A stretch of DNA of 60,216 nucleotides from Actinomycetes bacterium (GTDB lineage: Bacteria > Actinomycetota > Thermoleophilia > BMS3ABIN01). The stretch covers positions 1 through 60,216 of the forward strand of contig JAJYIM010000005.1 in assembly GCA_021790115.1 (NCBI GenBank). The letters are read 5' to 3'. Below, piece by piece: positions 4 to 16,100 of this stretch. The notes below the pieces were generated by a model. That model was not told the DNA's origin. It saw only the letters and a list, made by a program, of their open reading frames with translations, and searched no databases. Position numbers and translations under genes: made by a program. The first letter of the stretch is position 1; each line of letters starts with the position of its first letter.

Positions 4-651
4 TCAGCCTCGTCGGTCCCCCCCCGTCTCCAGGTTAAGACGGATAAGATCAAAAATCTGGTAAAGGTCGTGCGGATACAAATCTATATGCCGATTCAGA
101 AGGTTGATATTACGTGCTCTTTTTTTATCAATGTCTTGCTTGCACCAAGGTTTGTGAATAATCGTTATCTCAGAGGGAACATATGCGCATAAATCTCGGT
201 TGGGAACTGTCAGCTTCTCATGAAAAATTCCTTCATACCTAACCTCTGGAGATCTCTTAAAAAGGCGCAGGCTTCTCATTGCTGTCCATTTGGGAGATAA
301 CTGTATGAGAACTTCGTACCCCCGGATCTCATCCCGCTGAACCGCCGCTTTTATTTGGTTTTTACTTTGCGGGGCAAGAACTTCATCGGCATCAAGAACA
401 AGAATCCAGTCCCCGCTAGCATGGTCAAGAGAAATATTGCGCGGAATTGAGAAGCTGTCATTCCATTGATGAAAGAAAATCAGAGCTCCAAACGATTCGG
501 CAATCGCGGCCGACTTATCACGTGACCCCGTATCAACCACAATTATTTCGTCTGCTACATCTTTGACACTATTGAGGCATTTTGCCAGATGCTCCTCCTC
601 GTCTCTGACGATCATGCAAAGGCTGATTGACGTAACGTCCATAATCTTCAC
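4..651 (-). CDS. Family 2 glycosyltransferase (C-terminus appears frameshifted at a G8 tract; runs off window edge)
   Basis: SLCMIVRDEEEHLAKCLNSVKDVADEIIVVDTGSRDKS...LVLDADEVL GT2 signature; removing one G from the G8 run (18-25) gives ...LETGGTDEAEK, open to the window edge. Confidence 0.85.
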   Translation of the reverse strand: MKIMDVTSISLCMIVRDEEEHLAKCLNSVKDVADEIIVVDTGSRDKSAAIAESFGALIFFHQWNDSFSIPRNISLDHASGDWILVLDADEVLAPQSKNQIKAAVQRDEIRGYEVLIQLSPKWTAMRSLRLFKRSPEVRYEGIFHEKLTVPNRDLCAYVPSEITIIHKPWCKQDIDKKRARNINLLNRHIDLYPHDLYQIFDLIRLNLETGGDRRG

Positions 652-664
652 GCAAAAGAACTTC

Positions 665-964
665 TCAGGGTGCAGACAAAACGGCCAGATTCAATCTTTT
701 CATTTCATCTATGAACCTCATTATGTCTGCACGCGCCCGCTCCTCATCCACGTCAAATCTGAGGCACACCCCTTCAATAATTTCCTGAATGGTTCTTTCC
801 CCGTCGCAGTTTTTCCATAGAAAGCTCGCCGTTTTATTAAGCTGAAATACCTTCTCCTCGTCATCCTTTATTAAAATAATGAAGAGATCCGACTCGATTT
901 CCCGCCAGGCAACATTTTCGTCAATCCGGTTAATGCGGCATTTGCTGATATCCTCCATGAACAT
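665..964 (-). CDS. PqqD-like (RRE fold) peptide-chaperone family protein
   Basis: 99 aa, FQLNKTASFLWKNCDGERTIQEIIEGVCLRFDVDEERARADIMRFIDEMKRLNLA matches the PqqD family pattern; overlaps end of upstream kinase gene. Confidence 0.85.
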   Translation of the reverse strand: MFMEDISKCRINRIDENVAWREIESDLFIILIKDDEEKVFQLNKTASFLWKNCDGERTIQEIIEGVCLRFDVDEERARADIMRFIDEMKRLNLAVLSAP

Positions 965-1817
965 CCTCCAGTGCTTCGATCGGGTCCCAAAAACTTTTAT
1001 CCCTTTTAAAAAAAAGGCGGTAGTATGGCACCTTTTCCGCCAACTCGTTCACACAATTCAACAAATATTGGAATGCTTGTCTTCGGCCCCCGGATAAAAC
1101 AGGCTGAGGCAGAAAGATTTCGGGCAGGACTGCGCTTGCAAATTCGTCCCGGCTGCCTTTCTCTATTTTTGCTTCATCGCTTTTATGCAGCGAAAAAAAC
1201 ATTGACAGCGGTCCCCTGCGATCTGAAAGACGGAGCTGCGTCGGGTTGAATGGAATTCCCTGTACAAGTGACCCCTTCTGACTCATGACAACCAAGTTCA
1301 TGTCGTCGTGAAGCACTTCGCATCTTTCAGAAAAATGGGCAACAGTACTTTTACCGCTCCCCGCGGGCCCAAAAAAGACGTATCCTTTCCCATTTTTGAT
1401 GACGGCAGAGCTGTGGACTATGAAGGCTTTTTTATCATCCCCCTTCTCTTTAAAGAACAGCGTATAAAAAATACGGCACATTATGCGGTTGAGGAGCCAG
1501 ATTTCTTCCGTACTGAGAATAGATTCGCTTAACGCAAGCCGACACGTCCTTTTTTTATCGTTCCAGGACCCTTTGATCAGGTCGGGGCCGAAGTTGAATT
1601 TATGCTTGTCAACAGAATGCACATAGCTTTTGCCTGACTCGATATTTGGAATATTCTCATCTGACAGAACGGAAACCTTGAGTGAAACGTCGGAAGGCGC
1701 TGCCGAGCTAGTTTCATCAAAATGAACCTTAATAAAATCGGCTACGTCTTCGCGCTCACATGTCAGATCAATGATAAAACTGCCAAATTGAACGCGCACT
1801 TCGACTTCTCTGGTCAT
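930..1817 (-). CDS. HPr kinase-related (HprK-like/ScmC-like) P-loop protein
   Basis: FIVHSSAVIKNGKGYVFFGPAGSGKSTVAHF...VLHDDMNLV: Walker A and HprK-like Asp motif. Confidence 0.8.
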   Translation of the reverse strand: MTREVEVRVQFGSFIIDLTCEREDVADFIKVHFDETSSAAPSDVSLKVSVLSDENIPNIESGKSYVHSVDKHKFNFGPDLIKGSWNDKKRTCRLALSESILSTEEIWLLNRIMCRIFYTLFFKEKGDDKKAFIVHSSAVIKNGKGYVFFGPAGSGKSTVAHFSERCEVLHDDMNLVVMSQKGSLVQGIPFNPTQLRLSDRRGPLSMFFSLHKSDEAKIEKGSRDEFASAVLPEIFLPQPVLSGGRRQAFQYLLNCVNELAEKVPYYRLFFKRDKSFWDPIEALEDVHGGYQQMPH

Positions 1818-1934
1818 TCAGTTGATATTGCTCCAAATACAGAATCCTGTTTCCACTTTGTCATTCTTGTTTGTGGCCAATCAATCCCGACTCTTATAGG
1901 CTAATAAAAGAATTTTTATCTATACTCCAACGCC

Positions 1935-1980
1935 AAAAAGGCGCTTCCCATTTCTTGAAAGAAATAAAAAGCGCCTTTTT
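1935..1980 (-). terminator. Nested long hairpin with flanking A/T tracts (terminator/attenuator) between precursor peptide and kinase genes
   Basis: AAAAAGGCGCTT-ccc-ATTTCTT-ga-AAGAAAT-aa-AAGCGCCTTTTT read directly. Confidence 0.75.
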
Positions 1981-2034
1981 CAGACTTGAATTTCTAGCCT
2001 TTTACAATCGCTTGCCGTTGACCGCTGAACTTGC

Positions 2035-2142
2035 TTATATGAAAGGACTTGCTACTGGCGGCATCCCAAAGCTAAAAGACTCCTCGAGGTCTATTTCTTC
2101 AATAACTGGGGATTCATATGCCTCTTTCGTCTTTCCTTCCAT
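2035..2142 (-). CDS. Putative RiPP precursor peptide, 35 aa: MEGKTKEAYESPVIEEIDLEESFSFGMPPVASPFI
   Basis: Manually translated; SD AAGGAGGGG 6 nt upstream of ATG; YxxP leader motif (YESP) plus acidic leader and short C-terminal segment; immediately upstream of HprK-like and PqqD-like genes. Confidence 0.65.
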   Translation of the reverse strand: MEGKTKEAYESPVIEEIDLEESFSFGMPPVASPFI

Positions 2143-2175
2143 TGTTTTCCCCTCCTTCCCCTAAAAACTTACATA

Positions 2176-2204
2176 AATATTTCACGATCTTCGTAGTTTG
2201 TCAA
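2176..2204 (-). promoter_or_regulatory. Putative sigma-70-type promoter for the precursor peptide operon
   Basis: Minus strand TTGACA - 17 nt - AATATT, about 35 nt upstream of the precursor ATG. Confidence 0.45.
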
Positions 2205-2265: not shown

Positions 2266-2742
2266 ATGGAAAAAATCACAAAAACAGACGAGCAGTGGCG
2301 CCGGCAGCTGAGCCGCGAAGAGTATCGCGTAACCAGGAAGGGTGGAACGGAGCGAGCTTTTTCCGGCAAGTACGATGACTTTTTTGAGCCAGGGGTTTTC
2401 CATTGCGTTTGCTGCAGGCTAGAGCTGTTCAGCTCCCAGACAAAATTTCATTCAGGTACGGGCTGGCCCAGCTTTTGGGCGCCCGTCGATGAGGCGCACA
2501 TCAGCACTGCGCGCGACAACAGCCCGCCCGTCCCCCGGACTGAAGTAAAGTGCGCCCGCTGCGGCGCCCACCTGGGCCATGTATTTGCAGACGGGCCTGA
2601 GCCAACCGGGCGGCGCTACTGTATCAATTCTGTGGCGCTTAAGTTCGAGCGGGTGGACCAGTTGGCGCCGGCGCCGGGCTCAGGCGCGTCGGCCTGGACT
2701 GCCGTCAGGTGGCCTTCCGGGGACCCCGGCTGCGACACTTAA
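2266..2742 (+). CDS. msrB: Peptide-methionine (R)-S-oxide reductase
   Basis: GVFHCVCCRLELFSSQTKFHSGTGWPSFWAP...RRYCINSVALKF with Zn CxxC pairs. Confidence 0.93.
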   Translation: MEKITKTDEQWRRQLSREEYRVTRKGGTERAFSGKYDDFFEPGVFHCVCCRLELFSSQTKFHSGTGWPSFWAPVDEAHISTARDNSPPVPRTEVKCARCGAHLGHVFADGPEPTGRRYCINSVALKFERVDQLAPAPGSGASAWTAVRWPSGDPGCDT

Positions 2743-3284: not shown

Positions 3285-4590
3285 CAGCGCTCCTTTCTTT
3301 GCTTGCTGACGCTTGTGCAGGAACCAGGTTTCCCGGGAGCAGCATCAACACCAGCATTGCCCACAGCAGCAAGTCCCTCAGTGTGACCTCGCCGACCATA
3401 AATTCGCTCATCCCCACCAGTTGTGGATAATGATAAGGATATTCGTACTGGGTCAACAGCAGCGCCACCAGAAAAAGCGCCACGATCATTCGCCTGCCGC
3501 CGCCCATCGCGAGCGGGATCAGTGGCAGCAGCCAGATGACGTACTGCGGCGAAAAGACCTTGCCGAACAAGATGAAAGTCAACAGGCTGATGGCCGCGAA
3601 GCGCACGATTTCCGCCTGGCCACCCGCTTTGTTTACTCCCGCTTCCCGGCTGGAATGATAAAACGCATAGTATCCCAAAGCCAGCACGGTAGCCAGCACA
3701 AGCCCGGAAAGCAGCGAAATGACACCCGTGTGCATGGAGACGATATTATCTGAGCCATACGTGAATTCGGTTCTCACGGGAATTTTTAGCAGTTCTTTGG
3801 CCCACAGAAATGGCAACGCCCACGTACTTTCGAGCTGCACTGGCCGTTGTAAATGATTAAGGAAGGAGCGCAGCAGCCCGGCGGGCGCCATCAGCGCGTA
3901 AGGCAGCGCGATCAGCAACGCCGCCAACGCCATCGCCATCGGGCCAAGCCAGAACCGCTTGCGCCCCTGCCGGTAATCGCCAATGAAATAAAGCGGCGCA
4001 AGCAGAACTGGCACCAGCTTCAGCATGATGCCCACGCCCAGGAACGACCAAGCCAGCAACTTTTTCCCTTTTAGGAAAAACGCGAGACTGAGTATGACCA
4101 GGAAGGCAATCAGGAGGTCGAAGCGCACCTGGACAAGGCTGCCTGTGGCTACAATCGCGAGCGCGTAGGTTAATAGGACTGCTGCCAGTTGTTTCAGGCT
4201 CAGCCCGAAATGCCTGGCAGCCAGGCCCATCAGGACGGTGATGCTGCAGGAAAACACGAGGGTCTCGATTTCAAACCACAAGAAATACCGGTCGAAGTCG
4301 GGACCGGAAAACAGCCAGGGAAGATAGAATACCGGCACAACAACTGGAGGATATTCCAACGAGAAATCCCGGTAGGGAACCAAGCCGGCAGCAATCCGCT
4401 GAGCGTAAAAATAATAAAGGTGCACGCTGCTTGCAGATTTGTCCTGAAACCAGAAACGCTGGAAGAGGACGAACCATATCAGCACCTGAGCAAGCAGGAA
4501 AGCAGCGACGATCAGCCAGAATCCGTATGCGCGAACGATTTGCTTGCCCGACCCGCCCGCTGTGCCGGCGCTTTTGAGGATCCTTTTCAT
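3271..4590 (-). CDS. Polytopic membrane glycosyltransferase (GT87/DUF2029-like)
   Basis: Multiple TM helices, YPPVVVPVFYLPW, ...KVFSPQYVIWLLPL. Confidence 0.7.
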   Translation of the reverse strand: MKRILKSAGTAGGSGKQIVRAYGFWLIVAAFLLAQVLIWFVLFQRFWFQDKSASSVHLYYFYAQRIAAGLVPYRDFSLEYPPVVVPVFYLPWLFSGPDFDRYFLWFEIETLVFSCSITVLMGLAARHFGLSLKQLAAVLLTYALAIVATGSLVQVRFDLLIAFLVILSLAFFLKGKKLLAWSFLGVGIMLKLVPVLLAPLYFIGDYRQGRKRFWLGPMAMALAALLIALPYALMAPAGLLRSFLNHLQRPVQLESTWALPFLWAKELLKIPVRTEFTYGSDNIVSMHTGVISLLSGLVLATVLALGYYAFYHSSREAGVNKAGGQAEIVRFAAISLLTFILFGKVFSPQYVIWLLPLIPLAMGGGRRMIVALFLVALLLTQYEYPYHYPQLVGMSEFMVGEVTLRDLLLWAMLVLMLLPGNLVPAQASASKERSADGHL

Positions 4591-4617
4591 CCACCCCCCC
4601 CAGGCAGGCCGCGCCGG

Positions 4618-5184
4618 CTACGGCGTCAGCGCCTGCTTTAGCTCCAGCGTCAGTGGGTCCATCACGCGGCCCCTTGCCGCCAAGTAGCGCCGGTTAATCT
4701 CGATCGCCAGCCGCATGGCGCCGTTGACATCATCGTAGGCTAGCAGCCTGAGCTCGTCCAGGCGCGGCAGGGCGCGCTCCGGTTCGATCATATCGCCAAG
4801 AAACAGCAACTTGTCAGAAAGGCTCATTAGCGGATGGCCGGCAGTATGATAAAGCACGGCGCTGAGCACAGCCGCATCATCAATTTCAAGCTCGCGCCGC
4901 GCCATCTCCACCGCCAGCCTGCCGTGAAGCAGGATGGGAAACCGGCGGTCGATATCCCGCACAGGCAGCCCCAGCCGCTCGGCGGACTTAAGCATCTCGG
5001 CGTCGCTCATCCCGCGGGCGCTGTCATGCAGCAGCGCCGCCAGCTTCAATGGCTCCGCGTCCGCGCCATGGGCCGCGGCCAGGCCAGGTATCAGCTCGAG
5101 CACGCGCAGGCTGTGCCGCAGCCGCTCCTCATCAACCCTGGCCGCCAGCCAGGTCCGCACGCTATCTTGCGAAATTTCTTTCAT
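4618..5184 (-). CDS. HD-domain hydrolase, YqeK-like
   Basis: RLRHSLRVLELIPGLA...LAALLHDSARGMS...HGRLAVEMARRELEI...AVLYHTAGHP...KLLFLGDMIEP; ORF extends to 5244. Confidence 0.8.
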   Translation of the reverse strand: MKEISQDSVRTWLAARVDEERLRHSLRVLELIPGLAAAHGADAEPLKLAALLHDSARGMSDAEMLKSAERLGLPVRDIDRRFPILLHGRLAVEMARRELEIDDAAVLSAVLYHTAGHPLMSLSDKLLFLGDMIEPERALPRLDELRLLAYDDVNGAMRLAIEINRRYLAARGRVMDPLTLELKQALTP

Positions 5185-5384
5185 AACAGCAAAGGGCGGC
5201 CTTCCGGCGCCGCCCCTGCGCAACACACATCTGCAGCTTCTCATATTTTAACAATAACTGTCCCGGTTATCAGCAAATCGAGAACATCTCCTCAATCTAA
5301 AATACTCATTGACGGAGTAGTTAAAATCTAATTCTTTGACGCCGCTTGCCGGCACCTGGCCCACCGACGGCAGCGAAATCCGTT

Positions 5385-5750
5385 TCACTTTTGGCGCGAG
5401 GCCTTCAGCAAAGACTTGAAATCCCGCGGCAGCGGCTTGTCGGCCACGATGAAATCGTAGAGCTGGTCCGCGAGTTGCGGCGACCGGTAGAGGGCCTGCT
5501 GCAGGCCCCGCTGGCGGTACTCAAAAAAGTGCTCCGGTTTTACCCTCAGCGCCCTGGCGATAATCCTGATGACTGAATCTGCCGGCACCGGGCGCGAACC
5601 GCAGGCCAGGTGATTAAGGTAGCCTGCCGACAGTTTTGTCCGTGTGGCCAGCCGCCGGTAACTGATGTTGCGCAACTCAAGCAGCTCTTTGAGAGCCTCT
5701 GGAAACGGCAGCGCCGTGTTGGAAACTTCCTTTGGAGAAACCGGTTTCAT
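5385..5750 (-). CDS. XRE-family helix-turn-helix protein, translationally coupled (ATGA) to trpA
   Basis: LLELRNISYRRLATRTKLSAGYLNHLACGSRPVPADSVIRIIARALRVKPEHFFEYR. Confidence 0.85.
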   Translation of the reverse strand: MKPVSPKEVSNTALPFPEALKELLELRNISYRRLATRTKLSAGYLNHLACGSRPVPADSVIRIIARALRVKPEHFFEYRQRGLQQALYRSPQLADQLYDFIVADKPLPRDFKSLLKASRQK

Positions 5751-6532
5751 TGCTTTAGCGCCTCATTCATCTGGGAGAGAAAGGTCTTCACCGCCCGGCC
5801 AGCGATATCGATCTCGCCGGCGTCGCGGACGATGCTGATCAGCTTGCTGCCGATGATGACGCCGTCGGCATGGCAGGCCACCGCGGCGGCCTGCTCCGGG
5901 GAAGAGACGCCAAACCCCACAGCCAGCGGCACTTCCGTCTTCGCCCTCACCCGCGCCAGAAACCCAGGCAGCTGACCGCTGAGCGAAGCCCGGGCGCCAG
6001 TCACGCCGGCGACCGAGACACAGTATATAAAGCCCGATGCCCGGGCGGCAATCATCTCAATGCGCTCGTCGGTGCTTGTGGGCGCCACCAAGAGGATCGG
6101 GTCCACCCCATGGGCGCGGCAGATATCAATAAACTCTGACGCTTCGTCAACAGGAAGATCAGGCACGATCAGCCCGCTGACGCCGGCGGCGGCGGCGGCC
6201 TTCACAAATTCCTTCTGGCCGCAGGCGAAAACGCAGTTGTAATATACCAGCAACACCACCGGCAGCCGGCCGCTGTAACGGGACGCCAGCTCCAGCACGT
6301 CAACCGGGGTAACCCCCTCGTCCAGAGCCTGCTGCGCCGAAGCCTGCACCACCGGGCCGTCGGCGAGAGGATCAGAGAAAGGAACGCCCAGCTCGATCAT
6401 GTCGGCGCCGCCCTCAATAAAAGCATCCAGCACGTGTCCGCATGCGTGCATGCTGGGATAACCACCGGTGATATATGGCATCAGCAGCGCCTTCTTCTGG
6501 CGGTTGGCAAAGAGCTCCTTCAGGGCGCTCAA
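5747..6532 (-). CDS. trpA: Tryptophan synthase alpha subunit
   Basis: [11 protein letters not shown]...[19 protein letters not shown]...GLIVPDLP...[14 protein letters not shown]. Confidence 0.97.
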
Positions 6533-7707
6533 AGCAGCTCCAGTGCCCTGGCCGCCTGATAGACATCCTTGTCGCCGCGGCCGCTTAAGTTGACAATTAT
6601 TAGATCATCGGCTGCAAAGCGGTCAATATGCTTGGCCAGGTAGGCAATCGCGTGCGCACTTTCCAGCGCCGGGATGATGCCCTCTGTTTCCGAAAGCATG
6701 GTAAAAGCTTTTAGCGCTTCGGCGTCAGTTACAGAATCGTAGCGCACCCGGCCCTCGTCGTGCAGGAAGGAGTGCTCCGGCCCCACCCCGGGGTAATCAA
6801 GGCCGGCCGAGATTGAGTGGGCTTCCATGATCTGGCCGTACGCGTCCTGAAGCACGTAAGAGAGCGAGCCGTGCAGCACGCCGCGCTTCCCCCGCTCAAT
6901 CGAGGCGCCGTGCCTGCCGCTGTCCAGGCCCTCCCCTCCGGCTTCCACTCCAGTTAACCGGATCTCCTCCTTATCAAGGAAAGAGACGAACAGGCCCATG
7001 GCATTGCTGCCGCCGCCAACACACGCGATCAGCTCCGTCGGCAGGCGCCCCTCTGCTTCCTGTATTTGAGCAAGCGCCTCGCGGCCGATGACGCTTTGCA
7101 GTTCCCGCACAATTGCCGGATACGGAGCCGGGCCGGCGACGGAGCCAATGACGTAGTAAGTGTTTTCCACGTTTGTGACCCAGTCGCGGATAGCATCGTT
7201 CATGGCGTCTTTCAGCGTGCGGCTGCCGGAGCTTACCGGGATGACCTCGGCGCCCAGGAGCTTCATCCGCACCACGTTCAGCTCCTGGCGGTCAATGTCC
7301 TTCTCGCCCATGTAGATGGCGCAGGGAATGCCGAACAGGGCCGCCGCCGTAGCCGTCGCCACGCCGTGCTGGCCGGCGCCGGTCTCTGCGATCACACGCG
7401 ACTTGTTCATCTCCACTGCCAGCAGCAATTGGCCCACCGTGTTGTTGATCTTATGGGCGCCTGTATGGCAGAGGTCTTCGCGCTTAAGATAAACCCGGGG
7501 ACCGCCAAGCTTTGCTGTCAGACGCTCGGCAAAATAGAGCGGCGTTGGCCGGCCGACAAAGTTCTTGAGCAGTTCGTCCAGTTGGGACTGGAACCCGGGG
7601 TCGGCCCGCAGCCTGCCGTATGCAGCCGCAAGCTCATCAAGAGCAGGAATGACCGTTTCCGGAACATAGCGGCCGCCGTATGGTCCAAAACGGGCCGTGA
7701 TGCTCAT
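6529..7707 (-). CDS. trpB: Tryptophan synthase beta subunit
   Basis: [10 protein letters not shown]...[16 protein letters not shown]...GGGSNAMG...NLSGRGDKD. Confidence 0.98.
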
Positions 7708-8354
7708 CGCTTCATTTCTTTCAAAATGTCAAAGAGCCTTTCCATCTCGCCGGGATCCTTTACTCCCGGCGCCGATTCAATGCCGCTGGAGACATCAACC
7801 GCGAAGGGACCGACGGCGTCCAGCGCCTCCAGGATGTTTCCCGCGTTTAACCCTCCGGAGAGAATCAGCCTGCCTGAGCGTGTCTCCTCGGGCAGCGCCG
7901 CCGCCAGGCTCCAGTCAAAGATCTTGCCTGTGCCGCCGCGGCGCGCTGGACTATAAGTATCCAGTAGAAGCAGGCCGGTGTCAAACAAGGCAACGCTTTC
8001 GGGCAGCCGCGCTTCCCTTACCCGCAACGCCTTGATAACAATGACGCCGGCAAGGCCGGCCGCCCGGCGGCACTCTTCAGGCGTCTCTTCGCCGTGCAGC
8101 TGCACGGCCGTCAGGCCGCAGTTACGCACGGCGGCGGCGACTGCCTCCGGAGCCGCGTTGACAAATACTCCTACCTTCTCTATTCCCGCCGGGACGGCTG
8201 TCATAATCCGCGCTGCCTGCTTTACCGTCACGCGCCTGGGGCTCTCGCCGGCAAGGATGACGCCCACGGCCCAGGCGCCGGCCTTGGCGGCGGCGGCGGC
8301 GTCCCCTGGCCGGGTCAGCCCGCATATCTTTATTCTGGGAAGGTTACCGGCCAT
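7704..8354 (-). CDS. trpF: Phosphoribosylanthranilate isomerase
   Basis: [16 protein letters not shown]...VGVFVNA...VQLHGEE...[10 protein letters not shown]...DVSSGIE. Confidence 0.95.
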
Positions 8355-8382
8355 TTAGCAGCCCGCCATCTGCCACGCGGCA

Positions 8383-8420
8383 GGCACAGGCTTTCAGGCT
8401 GTGCAGGCACGGGCCTGTGC
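8383..8420. repeat. REP-like palindrome (diverged copy)
   Basis: GGCACAGGCTTTCAGGCTGTGCAGGCACGGGCCTGTGC; related to copies at 16735, 17438, 26164, 38603. Confidence 0.6.
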
Positions 8421-8545
8421 GAAAAAGAAATCTCCCAAAGGCAGGCAAACGCGCGCCATCTGCCTGATGTGATAAAAAAGCCCGGATAATCCGGACCGCG
8501 ATTGCACCCTGTATTTGTCTGACCAATTCCCGGCGGCCCTAAAAT

Positions 8546-9907
8546 TTACTCGTGGATGTGAATGGGAGCGCCCAGCGGCACCCAGTTAAAGATGTGATGG
8601 GCAGTCTCCACCGGCAGGCCCACACAGCCATGGCTGGAGCGTACCCCGAAAGTAGTAGCCCAGTAATTCCCGTGCATGGTGTAATCGCCGTCGAAGACCA
8701 TTACCCAGGGAACATGGGGAGCAAAATAGCCGGGGCCCCGCATATCCACGGAGGAAATCTTGGCGTAAATCGTGAAATCTCCCAGCGGCGTGGGGCTGCC
8801 GATAGCGCCGCTGGCGCACTGGTAACTTTCAATCGGGTTGCCGTTTTCCAGCAACGTCACTGTCTCGGTGGACACGTTCACGTCTATGGACTTCGACGGC
8901 GCCGTTGTGAATGTGGCCTGCATGTCACGATCGACAAATCCTCCGCTGATGCCGTGAAACGCCTGAGCGCCTCCTTTCAGCAGGATCGTGACATCCTGGA
9001 GATGATCCCAGCTCTTGGCGGGAACAAACTGCAGCTCATTGGGCTGAGGCCAGCTGAAACTGCCGGCTACCTTGGGCTCAATAGAGACGAGCTGCTGCGC
9101 CATCTGCGGATTGGAAACCGGCTCGCTAAACACGATCGTAGGATGCGCATCGGTGCTGGCGTTGGTGACGCTGTCGGCAGGCGAGAATGTCACACCCAAT
9201 GAGGGCGGCGTGCTTAAGGTCGCGGTCACCGGCTGATTCATCTGGACGCCGTTCTTCGAAGTGGCCGCGGTTATCGTCAGCGCATATTTCTTGCCCTGCT
9301 CAAACTTGGCCAGGGAGATAATCGCGGTGCGGCCGTCGTCGCTGACTCTGGACGTGCTCTTTACGCCGTCCAGCTTATAATTAAAACTGCTGATGGGGAT
9401 ATTCCACTGCAGCTTCAGGTCCTGGCCATTCTTGACAACCAGCCCATCCTTGCTCACGACCGGCATAGGCGTGATCAGGGTTGTAAATGTTGATGTTTCC
9501 TGCACCTGCCTGTCGGCAATGCCGGATAGCCCAATCTTCTTGACGGTGCCGCTGACCGTGACAGTATACTCTGCATCCGCCACCAGCGGATTTGATCCAT
9601 CAGCCGCTACAAATTTGCCATTTTGCAAATGGCCTGCAATTATCCGTCCGTTGTCCCGGGAGCCGTCCGGGGCAATTTTCTTCTCCAGCACGCTCACCGA
9701 AGTGATCGCGGCGCCCCAGTGGCTGGCGGCAATTTCAAGCGACTGCTGTGAGGGGTTTATCTCGCTGGCGCCATTGGCGGGGCTGATAGCAATCCCGGGC
9801 GGAAAAACCACGAGCACCAGGACGACGGCAATTATTACCAGGGCAATAATAAACCCGGCCACAAGGGCAGCCAGTTTCCTTGGAGCCATCGATAAAAACC
9901 GTGGCAT
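8546..9907 (-). CDS. Membrane-anchored L,D-transpeptidase (YkuD) with N-terminal Ig-like domains
   Basis: N-terminal TM segment; HGNYWATTFGVRSSHGCVGLPVETAHHIF catalytic motif. Confidence 0.9.
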   Translation of the reverse strand: MPRFLSMAPRKLAALVAGFIIALVIIAVVLVLVVFPPGIAISPANGASEINPSQQSLEIAASHWGAAITSVSVLEKKIAPDGSRDNGRIIAGHLQNGKFVAADGSNPLVADAEYTVTVSGTVKKIGLSGIADRQVQETSTFTTLITPMPVVSKDGLVVKNGQDLKLQWNIPISSFNYKLDGVKSTSRVSDDGRTAIISLAKFEQGKKYALTITAATSKNGVQMNQPVTATLSTPPSLGVTFSPADSVTNASTDAHPTIVFSEPVSNPQMAQQLVSIEPKVAGSFSWPQPNELQFVPAKSWDHLQDVTILLKGGAQAFHGISGGFVDRDMQATFTTAPSKSIDVNVSTETVTLLENGNPIESYQCASGAIGSPTPLGDFTIYAKISSVDMRGPGYFAPHVPWVMVFDGDYTMHGNYWATTFGVRSSHGCVGLPVETAHHIFNWVPLGAPIHIHE

Positions 9908-10229
9908 CTTTGGTAGCTCAGCTTGTTTTGCAGCCTCTCTGCCCAGCTTAACCGCCCTGCCTGATGCTTGATATGATAATTAGGCCTTCCGAAACTGCTG
10001 CCGGAATAATACTTTAGAATCTACCCTGCCGGCGCCACCGTCTAACCCCCGCTTGCCGGTATCATGTTGCCACTTGCCTTTTTGACAACAAGCCTGCCGG
10101 CGGCTGTGCCCCAAATTAAAAAAGTATAACAATTGCAGCAGTTTGTTTCCAGATAATTTATAATTACTGCAAACATTTTACGAGTTCCTGCTTATTTTTT
10201 TACAATTTGCTTTCGGGGGGCTGCCATGA

Positions 10230-10724
10230 TTGCCGCCCAGGCAGAATCTGGCGCAAATTATGATGGAATTGAAGCGGGAAAAAATTTTGGTTAGCGGCTG
10301 CCTCGCCGGGCTCCCCTGCAGTCATGACGGCCAGGGGCGCCTCAACAAAACGGTCAGGCGCCTGGTTGATGATGGCGCCGCAGTGCCCGTCTGCCCCGAG
10401 CAATTGGCGGGCCTGCCTTCGCCGCGTGAAATGGCCGAGATTGATGGCGGTGACGGAACCGGCGTCCTGGACGGAAAAGCCCGCGTCCGCTCGCGCCCGG
10501 GAAAGGATCTGTCGGCCGCTTTCACCAAAGGCGCGCAGGAAACGCTTAAGCTTGCCCGCCGCCACAGCTGCCGCATGGCGGTGCTTAAAGCCAGAAGCCC
10601 CTCCTGCGGCCGGGGACAGATTTACAACGGCAGTTTCCGTGGCCGGCTGAAGTCCGGCAGCGGCGTCACGGCGGCTCTGCTCATGCGCGCCGGCATTGAG
10701 GTTGCCACTGATGAAGAAATATAA
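10230..10724 (+). CDS. DUF523 family protein
   Basis: KILVSGCLAGLPCSHDGQ...PVCPEQLAGLPSPREMAEI...KARSPSCG. Confidence 0.85.
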   Translation: MPPRQNLAQIMMELKREKILVSGCLAGLPCSHDGQGRLNKTVRRLVDDGAAVPVCPEQLAGLPSPREMAEIDGGDGTGVLDGKARVRSRPGKDLSAAFTKGAQETLKLARRHSCRMAVLKARSPSCGRGQIYNGSFRGRLKSGSGVTAALLMRAGIEVATDEEI

Positions 10725-12256: not shown

Positions 12257-13108
12257 TTACTTGATCCGCTTTAGCAGCACCGGCACTTCTGTTTGCCTCA
12301 GGATCCCCTTTACCGTTGCCGCCCGTTCGCCTGCCATCTGCCCGCGCCAGATGAGAGCTATCATGTCCTCGTGTTGCTCGCGCGCAAAGGCAAGAGTCTC
12401 GGCAACGGTGCCTCCCGTCCGGTAGACGAGACGGATGTTTGCTTCGGGTTGCCGGGCCGCGAAGCGGCGCATGAACTCATCGGCCCATCCTGACCAGTCG
12501 TAATGAGGCCGGTCAAGATATCTGGGGCCGGTGAATGCACCTGCTTCGACGGGCTGCCTGGCGCTGACGGCAACATGAAGCACGTCAATATCCGCTCCCA
12601 TCATCTGCGCCAGGCTAAAGACCTGGTCCACCTCGCTTGCCGTCACCGGCGAGCCGTCATGAGGAATCAGCATCCGGCCCGGCTGCCAGTCGCGGTCGGG
12701 TGTGCCCTGCCTGAGCGGGCGCACCACCATCACCGGGATATCGCATTGCTGAATCACGTTCATGGTGACGCTGCCGGCAACGAGCCCGGCATCGTGCGTT
12801 CTGCCATGGCTAGACATGACAATCATGCTGGCGTCGAGGCTGGTGCCCAGCTCCAGAATGGCATTGACGATTTGACCGGTAGGTTGATGAAAAATGATTT
12901 TTTTGGTGTTGACCTGGCCCAGATTGAGCAGCCGCAGCAGCTGTTCTTCCGGCTGCGGCTCCTTGCCAACGTAAACAACGTGCAATGACGCCTCCAGCAG
13001 CCGCGCCACGGCCTCGGCGGCGCCGAAGGCCCGGGCGGCTGTGCGTGAGCCGTCCAGAGGAATGATGATCGCGCGCTGGTAATTACCATTGTCAGGATGA
13101 TTTATCAA
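12257..13108 (-). CDS. Tandem universal stress protein (UspA x2)
   Basis: RAIIIPLDGSRTAARAFGAAEAVARLL...MIVMSSHGRTHDAGLVAGSVTMNVIQQCDIPVMVVRP; second UspA-like half; TTG start with upstream GGGAGG proposed. Confidence 0.85.
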   Translation of the reverse strand: MINHPDNGNYQRAIIIPLDGSRTAARAFGAAEAVARLLEASLHVVYVGKEPQPEEQLLRLLNLGQVNTKKIIFHQPTGQIVNAILELGTSLDASMIVMSSHGRTHDAGLVAGSVTMNVIQQCDIPVMVVRPLRQGTPDRDWQPGRMLIPHDGSPVTASEVDQVFSLAQMMGADIDVLHVAVSARQPVEAGAFTGPRYLDRPHYDWSGWADEFMRRFAARQPEANIRLVYRTGGTVAETLAFAREQHEDMIALIWRGQMAGERAATVKGILRQTEVPVLLKRIK

Positions 13109-16100
13109 AAAGGCCTCCCTTCTCCCCGGCCGGCCCCTGATCGCCCGGCAGCGCAACAACGCCGGCGCCGGGCTCGGCGCCGGGCCGCTTAAAATCGCCC
13201 CAGCCGTCTCCCCCCCAGCGTGAAACATAGCTGCCTGCCGCCAGAGGCGTCAGCCGGCCGCCGAATATTCCTAACTTAGCCTCCCCCTCTCCCGCAATTT
13301 CCACACCGGTTTCAGCCTCCCGCCTGACGGTGAAACGCAACTGCATGTTTCGCCAAAGCAGCGTGAATTCGATTTTGCCCCATTGCCCGGGCAGCCGCGG
13401 GTAAACGTAAATGCCTTCCCTGGTTATCCTGACGCCGGCAAAACCCATAATCACCTGTTGCCAGAGCCCGCCCAGCGCCGCCACGTGAATGCCGCCGGCG
13501 GCATTGCCGTAGGTCAAGTCAATTCTTGCGCCCCTGCGGAAATAATGCCAGGCAGTCTCCATCAGGCCCAGCCGCGCGGCCACCAGGCCATAAATGGCAG
13601 GCGAGAGCGAGCTGCCGTGGCAGGTGCGGGGCTCGTAATAATCAAAGCTGTTTCTAACGGCGGCCGGATCAAGTTCCTCTTCCAGCAGGTAAAGCGCCAT
13701 GACAACATCGGCCTGCTTGACAAGCTGGGAAGCGACCGTGCGCTCGTGGCCCAGCAGCACGTCAACCGGCGCCCAGCGCGGCTCCAGCCGGCCAAGGTCA
13801 ATGTCCTCCAGCTGAAAGTAGCCGCCAAACTGCTCAATGACGCCTGCGGCTGTGCCTGTTGGCGCGCCGGCAGGTCCGCCCTTGGCGTCGGCGCCGCGCG
13901 CCGCCTCCGTGAGCCCGGCTTCTCTCGGGCCGGCCGGCAGTGGCTTTTTTTCTGCACGCTTGCCGGCCACCCGGGCGGCCGGCCCCAGATGCATGCCGGC
14001 GGCCACCTGCCGCCAGCGCGCAGGCTCGCCGTCGTCAAACCCCAGCTTTTCCGCCAGCAATTGCCATTCCTGCGGCCACCCGGCCTTAAGCCACTCCACC
14101 ACCTCGGCGGCGCGCCTTAAATTCCAGCGCGCCGTCAGGTTGGTGTAAAAGTTGTCATCCACACCCTCGTCGTGATACTCATCCGGGCCTTCCACGCCGA
14201 GAATATGGAAAACCCCATCCCTGGCGGTAACGCGGCTGGCCCAAAAGCGGGCGGTCTCGATCAGCAGCTCGGCGCCGGCGCCGGCCATGAAGCTGTCATC
14301 GCCGCTGACGTTCCAGTACAACCAGGCGCCCCAGGCAACCGCGGCGCTGATGTGGTGCTCGAGCTTGCCGGAAAGAACGGGCACAACCTCGCCTTTGGCG
14401 TCAAGCACAGCAGCCGGCGTCATGTCCGCGCCCGTAGCGGTTGCCTCCCAGGAAAAAAGCGCCCCGGCATAACCCTTTTTGATTGCATTGCCGCGGGCCG
14501 CAGACAGGGTGTGGAAACGGTACATGAGCATGTTGCGGGCCGTAGGCGGATGAGTGAAGATGAAAAAAGGCAGGATAAACATCTCTGCGTCCCAGAAAAT
14601 ATGTCCCTTGTAGATGGACCCGGTAAGCGCCCGGGCGCTGATGGAAATCCGCTCGTCATGAGGATTGCCGGCGCTGATCAGGTGATAGCAGGCAAAATTA
14701 AGCCACTGCTGACTCTCCGGGTCATCCACGCTGATGGCGACTGCGGCGCGCCGCTGCCGCCACGCCTCTGCCTGATCCAGCAACAGCCCGGTGAATCCGC
14801 GCTTGCTGAGCCGGCCTGCATGTGACCTTGCCTCCTGGGCGGGGCCGGCGCTTTCCCGGGAAGTGTAAATGCCGACGTATTTCTCAATCGTGACCGGCTG
14901 CCCGGGCGCGGCCCGCCAGCGCCAGTTTTCGAACACCCCCGAATCGTCCGACTGGCTGTCCCGGGCCGGCTCGATAAAACCCGGGGCCGCGGCGCTCCTT
15001 TGATGCTGGACCAGAGTTATGCCCGTATATGCCGTCCGGGCTTCAATAAAGACGCCGCCGTTTTTCCCCGCATCTTTTTCGATAATCTGCAGCGCCGGAA
15101 CACAGCCACCACATATCTTTAATCCGGTCTTGAGGTGGATATCGCCGCGGTAATTTTCCGGCCTTACCGTTACTCTTTCCACGAGGCCATGCGGATCGGC
15201 CAGCGGTGCAAAGCGGGTGAACCTGATCAGCGTTATCCGGTTGTCATGTCCCCGGTGGCGCCACTCGCGGAAGAGCACACCCCTGCTCAGGTCCAGGATG
15301 CGCCTTTGTTCCAGCAGACTTTTCTTGGCAGCGTACAGGTGCTCACCGTTGACAGTGATGCGCGTGAAGATCCAGTCAGGCGCCACGATCAGCTCTTCAA
15401 TCGATTCTTCGCTTGTTTTGTCGTACAACCCGGCTACCAGCGTCGCCGGCGCCGAAGACCTGACCTGCTCCGCCAGGGAGCCGCGGCTGCCCAGATAGCC
15501 GTTGCCAATGGCAAGCAGGGACTCAATTTCGCGCTCCCGCAGATGATTAAAACCGGTCTCTTCCAGCACGGCGGCCGGGTCATCTGCAGGCAGCAGTTGC
15601 CGGTGCAAGCGGATCTGGGCCTGCAGCAGCTCTAAAAAACAGGCAGGGCCGCCGCCTAAATACCGGACCTGGGCAGGAACGCCGTTGGGCTCCGGGCCCA
15701 CGGAGATATAGGTGGAGCCAGACGGCCAGTCTTCAGCTTCGGCGGCAGGGCCGGCTGCACCTGGCGCGGCCAGCTCGGGCAACACCATGTGAAAATCGCT
15801 GCCCTCAAAGCCGGCCACGGGTCCAAACTCGTCGCCGCCAATGAGCATGTCTGCAAAGGGAATATTTCTTTTGCGGCAAAGCTCGCCGGCAATCCAGCGC
15901 ATCGAATCTGACTTGTCGGTGAGGCCGACTTCGATGTGCTTGACGTCGCTGGTGACCCGGGCCCCGGCGAGGCCGAAGCGCCGGGAGTAATAGGCAGTCA
16001 GCTCAAAAGCGCTATGGATGCCGCCGGCAAAGCCGCCGTCCCGAAGGCGGGCTTCCGTTTTTTTGATAAGCTTGCCGATCTGTGATTTGGGCGGGTCCGG

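Follow-up and report, generated by a model that had tools for sequence, protein, structure and literature searches.

A compact actinobacterial RiPP cassette resembling linear polyphosphorylated peptide operons, with a glycosyltransferase gene split at a poly-G tract

Does the left end of this contig encode a RiPP, and which enzymes would mature it? The window, which is the whole stretch of 60,216 nucleotides that we analysed, starts at a contig end. An earlier note on this DNA had placed the edge of a RiPP locus here, with the remainder beyond position 1, and this is what we found. A 35-aa ORF on the minus strand (2035..2142) is followed on the same strand by genes for an HprK-like kinase (HprK1, 930..1817), a PqqD-family protein (665..964) and a GT2 glycosyltransferase (4..642). 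The rest of the locus lies on another contig of the same assembly, C43 (L054), which overlaps the first 136 bp of the window apart from the length of one G-tract: 119 identical bases are followed by a tract of 11 G (8 G in the window) and 17 identical bases. In C43, the signal peptidase gene is followed by a methyltransferase gene that is conserved in sister species. In two of these, G001 and G003, a single contig carries this methyltransferase gene and, at a distance of about 250 bp, MsrB (window 2266-2742), an arrangement that independently supports the join between the window and C43. The whole cassette thus reads precursor, HprK1, PqqD-type RRE, GmaR/SunS-like GT2 with TPR, a second HprK-like kinase (HprK2) and an archaeal-type signal peptidase. 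The radical SAM, lasso cyclase, B2 protease and exporter genes that the earlier note sought beyond position 1 are absent from C43 and from the complete cassette (window plus C43). A lasso cyclase or radical SAM gene next door is ruled out by C43 and the sister-species sites.

The 35-aa peptide, MEGKTKEAYESPVIEEIDLEESFSFGMPPVASPFI, consists of a YxxPxI leader and a short Ser/Pro core without Cys. Direct reading of the sequence gives its Shine-Dalgarno context as GGAAGGAGGGGAAAACA-ATG, and a sigma-70-like promoter, TTGACA-N17-AATATT (2176..2204, minus strand; 10/12 matches, extended TG), precedes the gene. Between the precursor and HprK1 genes lies an attenuator- or terminator-like hairpin with a U-run (1930..1982, minus strand; -31.7 kcal/mol; z -6.2 for the minus strand, -4.6 for the plus strand), a site at which a simple terminator scan reported none. 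An attenuator 3' of the precursor gene would yield more precursor than enzyme.

To score candidate precursors, we used a leader profile of 19 positions made from 17 short ORFs that neighbour HprK/PqqD genes, either elsewhere in the phylum or on another contig of the same genome, with the window peptide left out. The 35-aa ORF ranked first of the 868 window ORFs of at least 20 aa, with 35.0 bits against 11.0 for the runner-up. As the 17 ORFs were picked by the YxxP pattern, part of this score rests on YxxP, and the remainder comes from the flanking leader positions. Known precursors scored 0.1 to 44.4 bits when left out one at a time, mostly 25-44, so the profile is sensitive for most precursors, not all. 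Judged by a score beyond chance, the ORF at 2035-2142 is a real precursor gene. A Pfam/NCBIfam search of the peptide gave no match. Conservation beside HprK-like and PqqD-like genes, which the earlier note had made the touchstone, holds for the leader, which is kept in relatives; it fails for the ORF itself, as the 398 genomes of the phylum contain relatives by leader only and no ortholog.

The nearest described system is that of the linear polyphosphorylated peptides (LPP; Popov et al. 2026, PMC13381572), which comprises an RRE, an HprK-like kinase by which a core Ser is polyphosphorylated, and an archaeal-type signal peptidase that depends on the RRE. Each of these parts has a counterpart here. 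HprK1 (295 aa) has an intact P-loop (GPAGSGKST) and HDD motif, and its AlphaFold model (pLDDT 80) matches the PEPCK and HPr kinase folds. HprK2 is encoded outside the window (C43 629-1495), and the two kinases are each other's best match, self aside, among the 398 phylum genomes. In that set, HprK2 has only a relic ortholog in the genome G002 and distant homologs; no close relatives of HprK1 were found in GTDB contigs. The 13 HprKs that we aligned diverge too much to support a degenerate scan. The signal peptidase (C43 1516-2049, outside the window) scores 67.1 bits against TIGR02228 (cutoff 51.85), and its Ser (SxSMSP), His (THR) and Asp (RGD) positions are conserved.

The discrete RRE (99 aa, minus strand; Pfam PqqD, E 1.5e-17), whose gene overlaps that of HprK1 by 35 bp, points in the same direction. 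By sequence, its closest solved structure is 9x8z (E 0.0022), ahead of TbiB1, and 9x8z is the entry given for the LppB complex (PMC13381572). The LppB residues that grip Tyr and Pro of the leader, with the Asp bonding the Tyr (PMC13381572), are kept in the window RRE (N33 as N43, D70 as D80, F74 as F84, M78 as M88 and L32 as L42), and D80 does not vary among the 13 RREs compared from these loci. The RRE model also matches TbiB1 and another lasso B1 protein, both in leader complex.

G001 and G003 have an empty site, and a third sister species, G002, carries an eroded relic at the same spot, in the order promoter region, HprK2 piece and signal peptidase end. DNA homology in the relic is kept up to window position 2178; its HprK2 piece corresponds to C43:800-885 with 68% amino-acid identity, and its signal peptidase end to C43 from 1917. 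The bounds drawn by the relic coincide with the promoter of the peptide and the signal peptidase, and the common ancestor of G002 and the source genome (G000) most likely had the cassette. With a GC content of 0.44 against 0.57-0.59 around it, the cassette forms a low-GC island. The 398 phylum genomes yielded no orthologous cassette that combines GT2 with two kinases.

The glycosyltransferase gene is divided over the two contigs. Its catalytic half (4..642, minus strand) ends at a frame break in the poly-G tract (18..25, minus strand; 8 G in the window, 11 G in C43), and its TPR half is found at C43 84-632, outside the window. In all nine GT2-TPR relatives that we profiled, the two form a single protein, and the profile of these nine covers the window GT2 (profile positions 3-207) and then the C43 TPR ORF (240-364), in order. 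This shows that they belong to one gene, broken at the G-tract. The TPR is out of frame at both tract lengths. The best solved matches of the GT2 are GmaR (2.4e-25) and SunS (2.8e-18), which are peptide or protein glycosyltransferases.

From the established gene content, two-contig join, homology, leader conservation and intact catalytic motifs, we infer all chemical steps, the cleavage site and export. The locus is probably a compact LPP-like RiPP operon, in which a Ser is phosphorylated and probably also glycosylated, and the leader is cut off by the signal peptidase. The RRE would bind the YESPVI motif of the precursor, and one or both kinases would phosphorylate a Ser early in the core, with S24 as the motif-aligned counterpart of LPP Ser3 and S22 or S32 as alternatives. 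The GT2/TPR protein may add a sugar to Ser or phospho-Ser, and the signal peptidase, with its substrate presented by the RRE, would remove the acidic leader. If cleavage follows the LPP motif, the core would be SFSFGMPPVASPFI, whose third residue is Ser, as in LPP; the small-residue pattern (EPLA) of the actinobacterial relatives would place the cut after S24. The predicted product is a linear peptide of 11-14 residues. This would extend the LPP way, with RRE-guided phosphorylation and leader removal by a signal peptidase, from Bacillota, to which LPP reports are confined (PMC13381572), to Actinomycetota. With its 35-aa precursor, its two paralogous kinases and its candidate peptide O-glycosyltransferase, the cassette could also serve as a minimal test system.

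The broken gene raises the possibility, which we hold only tentatively, of a phase-variable RiPP. Changes in poly-G tract length by slippage would toggle glycosylation of the peptide while phosphorylation and leader cleavage persist, so that one operon could give two products. This idea is based on the 8 and 11 G in the two contigs, the nine unsplit relatives and the place of the tract among the three longest G/C tracts of the genome (14 on C20, 11 in GT2/TPR and 11 on C63). Long tracts of this kind are rare: runs of at least 8 G or C occur at about a dozen places in the genome. However, a homopolymer library or assembly error could produce the same picture of 8 and 11 G. A literature search for RiPPs and phase variation gave no such case among the papers that it listed and, as far as that search shows, a G-tract switch in a tailoring enzyme would, if true, be the first for RiPPs. 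The other two long tracts were recorded as well: the 14-base C tract lies in a 524-aa GT39-like glycosyltransferase ORF (L079, C20 3049-3062) and is itself a candidate hypermutable tract, and the 11-G tract on C63 (L078, 3-13) lies at the contig start, so that this is another contig ending at a long G-tract.

The source genome is placed in Actinomycetota by its TrpB, whose nearest named relatives, at 91% and 82%, are in Actinomycetes and Thermoleophilia MAGs. Related loci in this phylum combine HprK, PqqD, a YxxP precursor and a signal peptidase. Several occur in the same family and phylum, most of them with a radical SAM/SPASM gene and Cys-bearing cores. The source genome itself contains a second cassette, split over two contig ends (L112, C39:12000-22697, 9253-10591; L055, C13, 45-1605), with the order PqqD, radical SAM/SPASM, a 61-aa Cys-rich precursor (RRPYRAPAVERVPLVAEEAVLFNCKC...), HprK-like kinase and a signal peptidase-like gene; the join of its two parts is drawn from the gene order of L062. 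In another genome (L077, G090:C1:67000-82000, 4473-9182), HprK, PqqD, an 85-aa YxxP precursor, signal peptidase, ABC genes and a nucleotidyltransferase lie in a polysaccharide locus without radical SAM, close to the LPP layout, with genes named from their translations. The end of the precursor in that locus, LPSTGG followed by a hydrophobic stretch and RRR, resembles a sortase anchoring signal. Elsewhere in the source genome (L056, C58:44000-59849, 12512-14368), HprK-like, PqqD and lasso-B2-like transglutaminase genes lie together, and no YxxP precursor or cyclase was seen nearby. The differing tailoring enzymes of the related loci suggest that RRE, HprK and signal peptidase form a reusable chassis into which radical SAM, GT2 or NTP transferase enzymes are plugged.

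We considered four other readings of the locus. The GT2 could be a neighbour that acts on surface glycans, leaving the RiPP a plain phosphopeptide. LPP operons are often embedded in polysaccharide loci (PMC13381572). Other GT2-TPR relatives occur in glycan or large multidomain contexts; PqqD-like domains lie near two of them (L099/L110 and L101/L111), and the neighbourhoods, mostly read over short flanks, gave no convincing HprK-like gene (only one match, E 7e-5, in L101) and no YxxP precursor. We nevertheless regard this reading as unlikely, with the GT2 gene inside the operon, between those of the RRE and HprK2, and with a low-GC island containing it that came and went as a unit. It is less probable still that the precursor belongs to the radical SAM type of these cassettes (HprK, PqqD, radical SAM, precursor and signal peptidase) and that a radical SAM enzyme encoded elsewhere in the genome matures it in trans. 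The second cassette would provide one, and the genome has 32 radical SAM matches, but the window core is Cys-free, whereas all radical SAM-linked precursors that we saw carry a core Cys, and RRE, kinases and protease are all encoded within the cassette itself. We give similarly little credence to a glycocin-like RiPP, with the GT2 as main maturase and the kinases accessory or regulatory. The GT2 does resemble the SunS family (72.2 bits, E 3.6e-20) and matches both SunS and GmaR in the PDB; however, its score is far under the model cutoff of 350, GmaR matches better, the peptide has no Cys, the cassette lacks a C39 exporter and a thiol oxidoreductase, and the kinase and signal peptidase fit LPP. 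A paeninodin-type lasso-peptide locus cut by the contig end, which the YxxP leader, discrete RRE, HprK-like kinase and B1-like RRE model would all suit, is very improbable and, barring a cyclase that works in trans, is refuted here: the remainder on C43 holds neither cyclase nor B2, the genes that flank the cassette are direct neighbours in G001 and G003, positions 7-9 of the core hold no Asp/Glu and paeninodin leaders carry WxxP.

How, then, does the LPP-like cassette compare with known systems? The earlier note had paired the YxxP leader with the RRE and HprK-like kinase and seen kinship with lasso peptides or SynChlorMet; the pairing stands, and the closer kin is LPP. Its suspicion that the modification class is not lasso was sound, as the cassette is complete without cyclase or B2, the leader has Y for W and the core has no acceptor acid; HprK-like kinase, RRE and a [Y/W]xxP leader are shared with the paeninodin type. 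SynChlorMet shares the pair of HprK-like and PqqD-like proteins (ScmC/ScmD, NCBIfam TIGR04249/TIGR04248), which are the best NCBIfam matches here, both below cutoff (26.1 of 125 and 40.7 of 100 bits), but its radical SAM proteins ScmE/ScmF are absent from the cassette. SunS and GmaR share the GT-A catalytic domain and TPR half; in contrast, the SunS score is far under cutoff, the substrate is Cys-free, unlike that of glycocins, and the gene is broken by a G-tract. A literature search found no paper joining HprK, PqqD, RiPP, kinase and glycosyltransferase. With LPP, the cassette shares a discrete RRE predicted to bind YxxP (from the PqqD match, 9x8z and the LppB residues), an HprK-like kinase, here in two copies, a counterpart of the archaeal-type signal peptidase I LppS above the TIGR02228 cutoff, and a short precursor without a cyclase. 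By eye, the leader (YESPVI...IDLEESFS) partly matches the LPP motif YxxPxVLxHQxIxFETxxS (PMC13381572), but its P-to-I spacing is three residues shorter, and LxHQ and FET are missing as such (IDLEESFS against IxFETxxS). The NTP transferase LppN is absent, with GT2/TPR in its place, as is the MsbA-like exporter, the cassette ending at the signal peptidase; the host belongs to Actinomycetota, the kinase is duplicated and the precursor has only 35 aa. Since it has neither the NTP transferase nor the exporter and its motif match is partial, this RiPP cassette, which probably works like LPP, is not to be filed as LPP, and what is new here is the putative GT2/TPR tailoring, the duplicated kinase and the new phylum.
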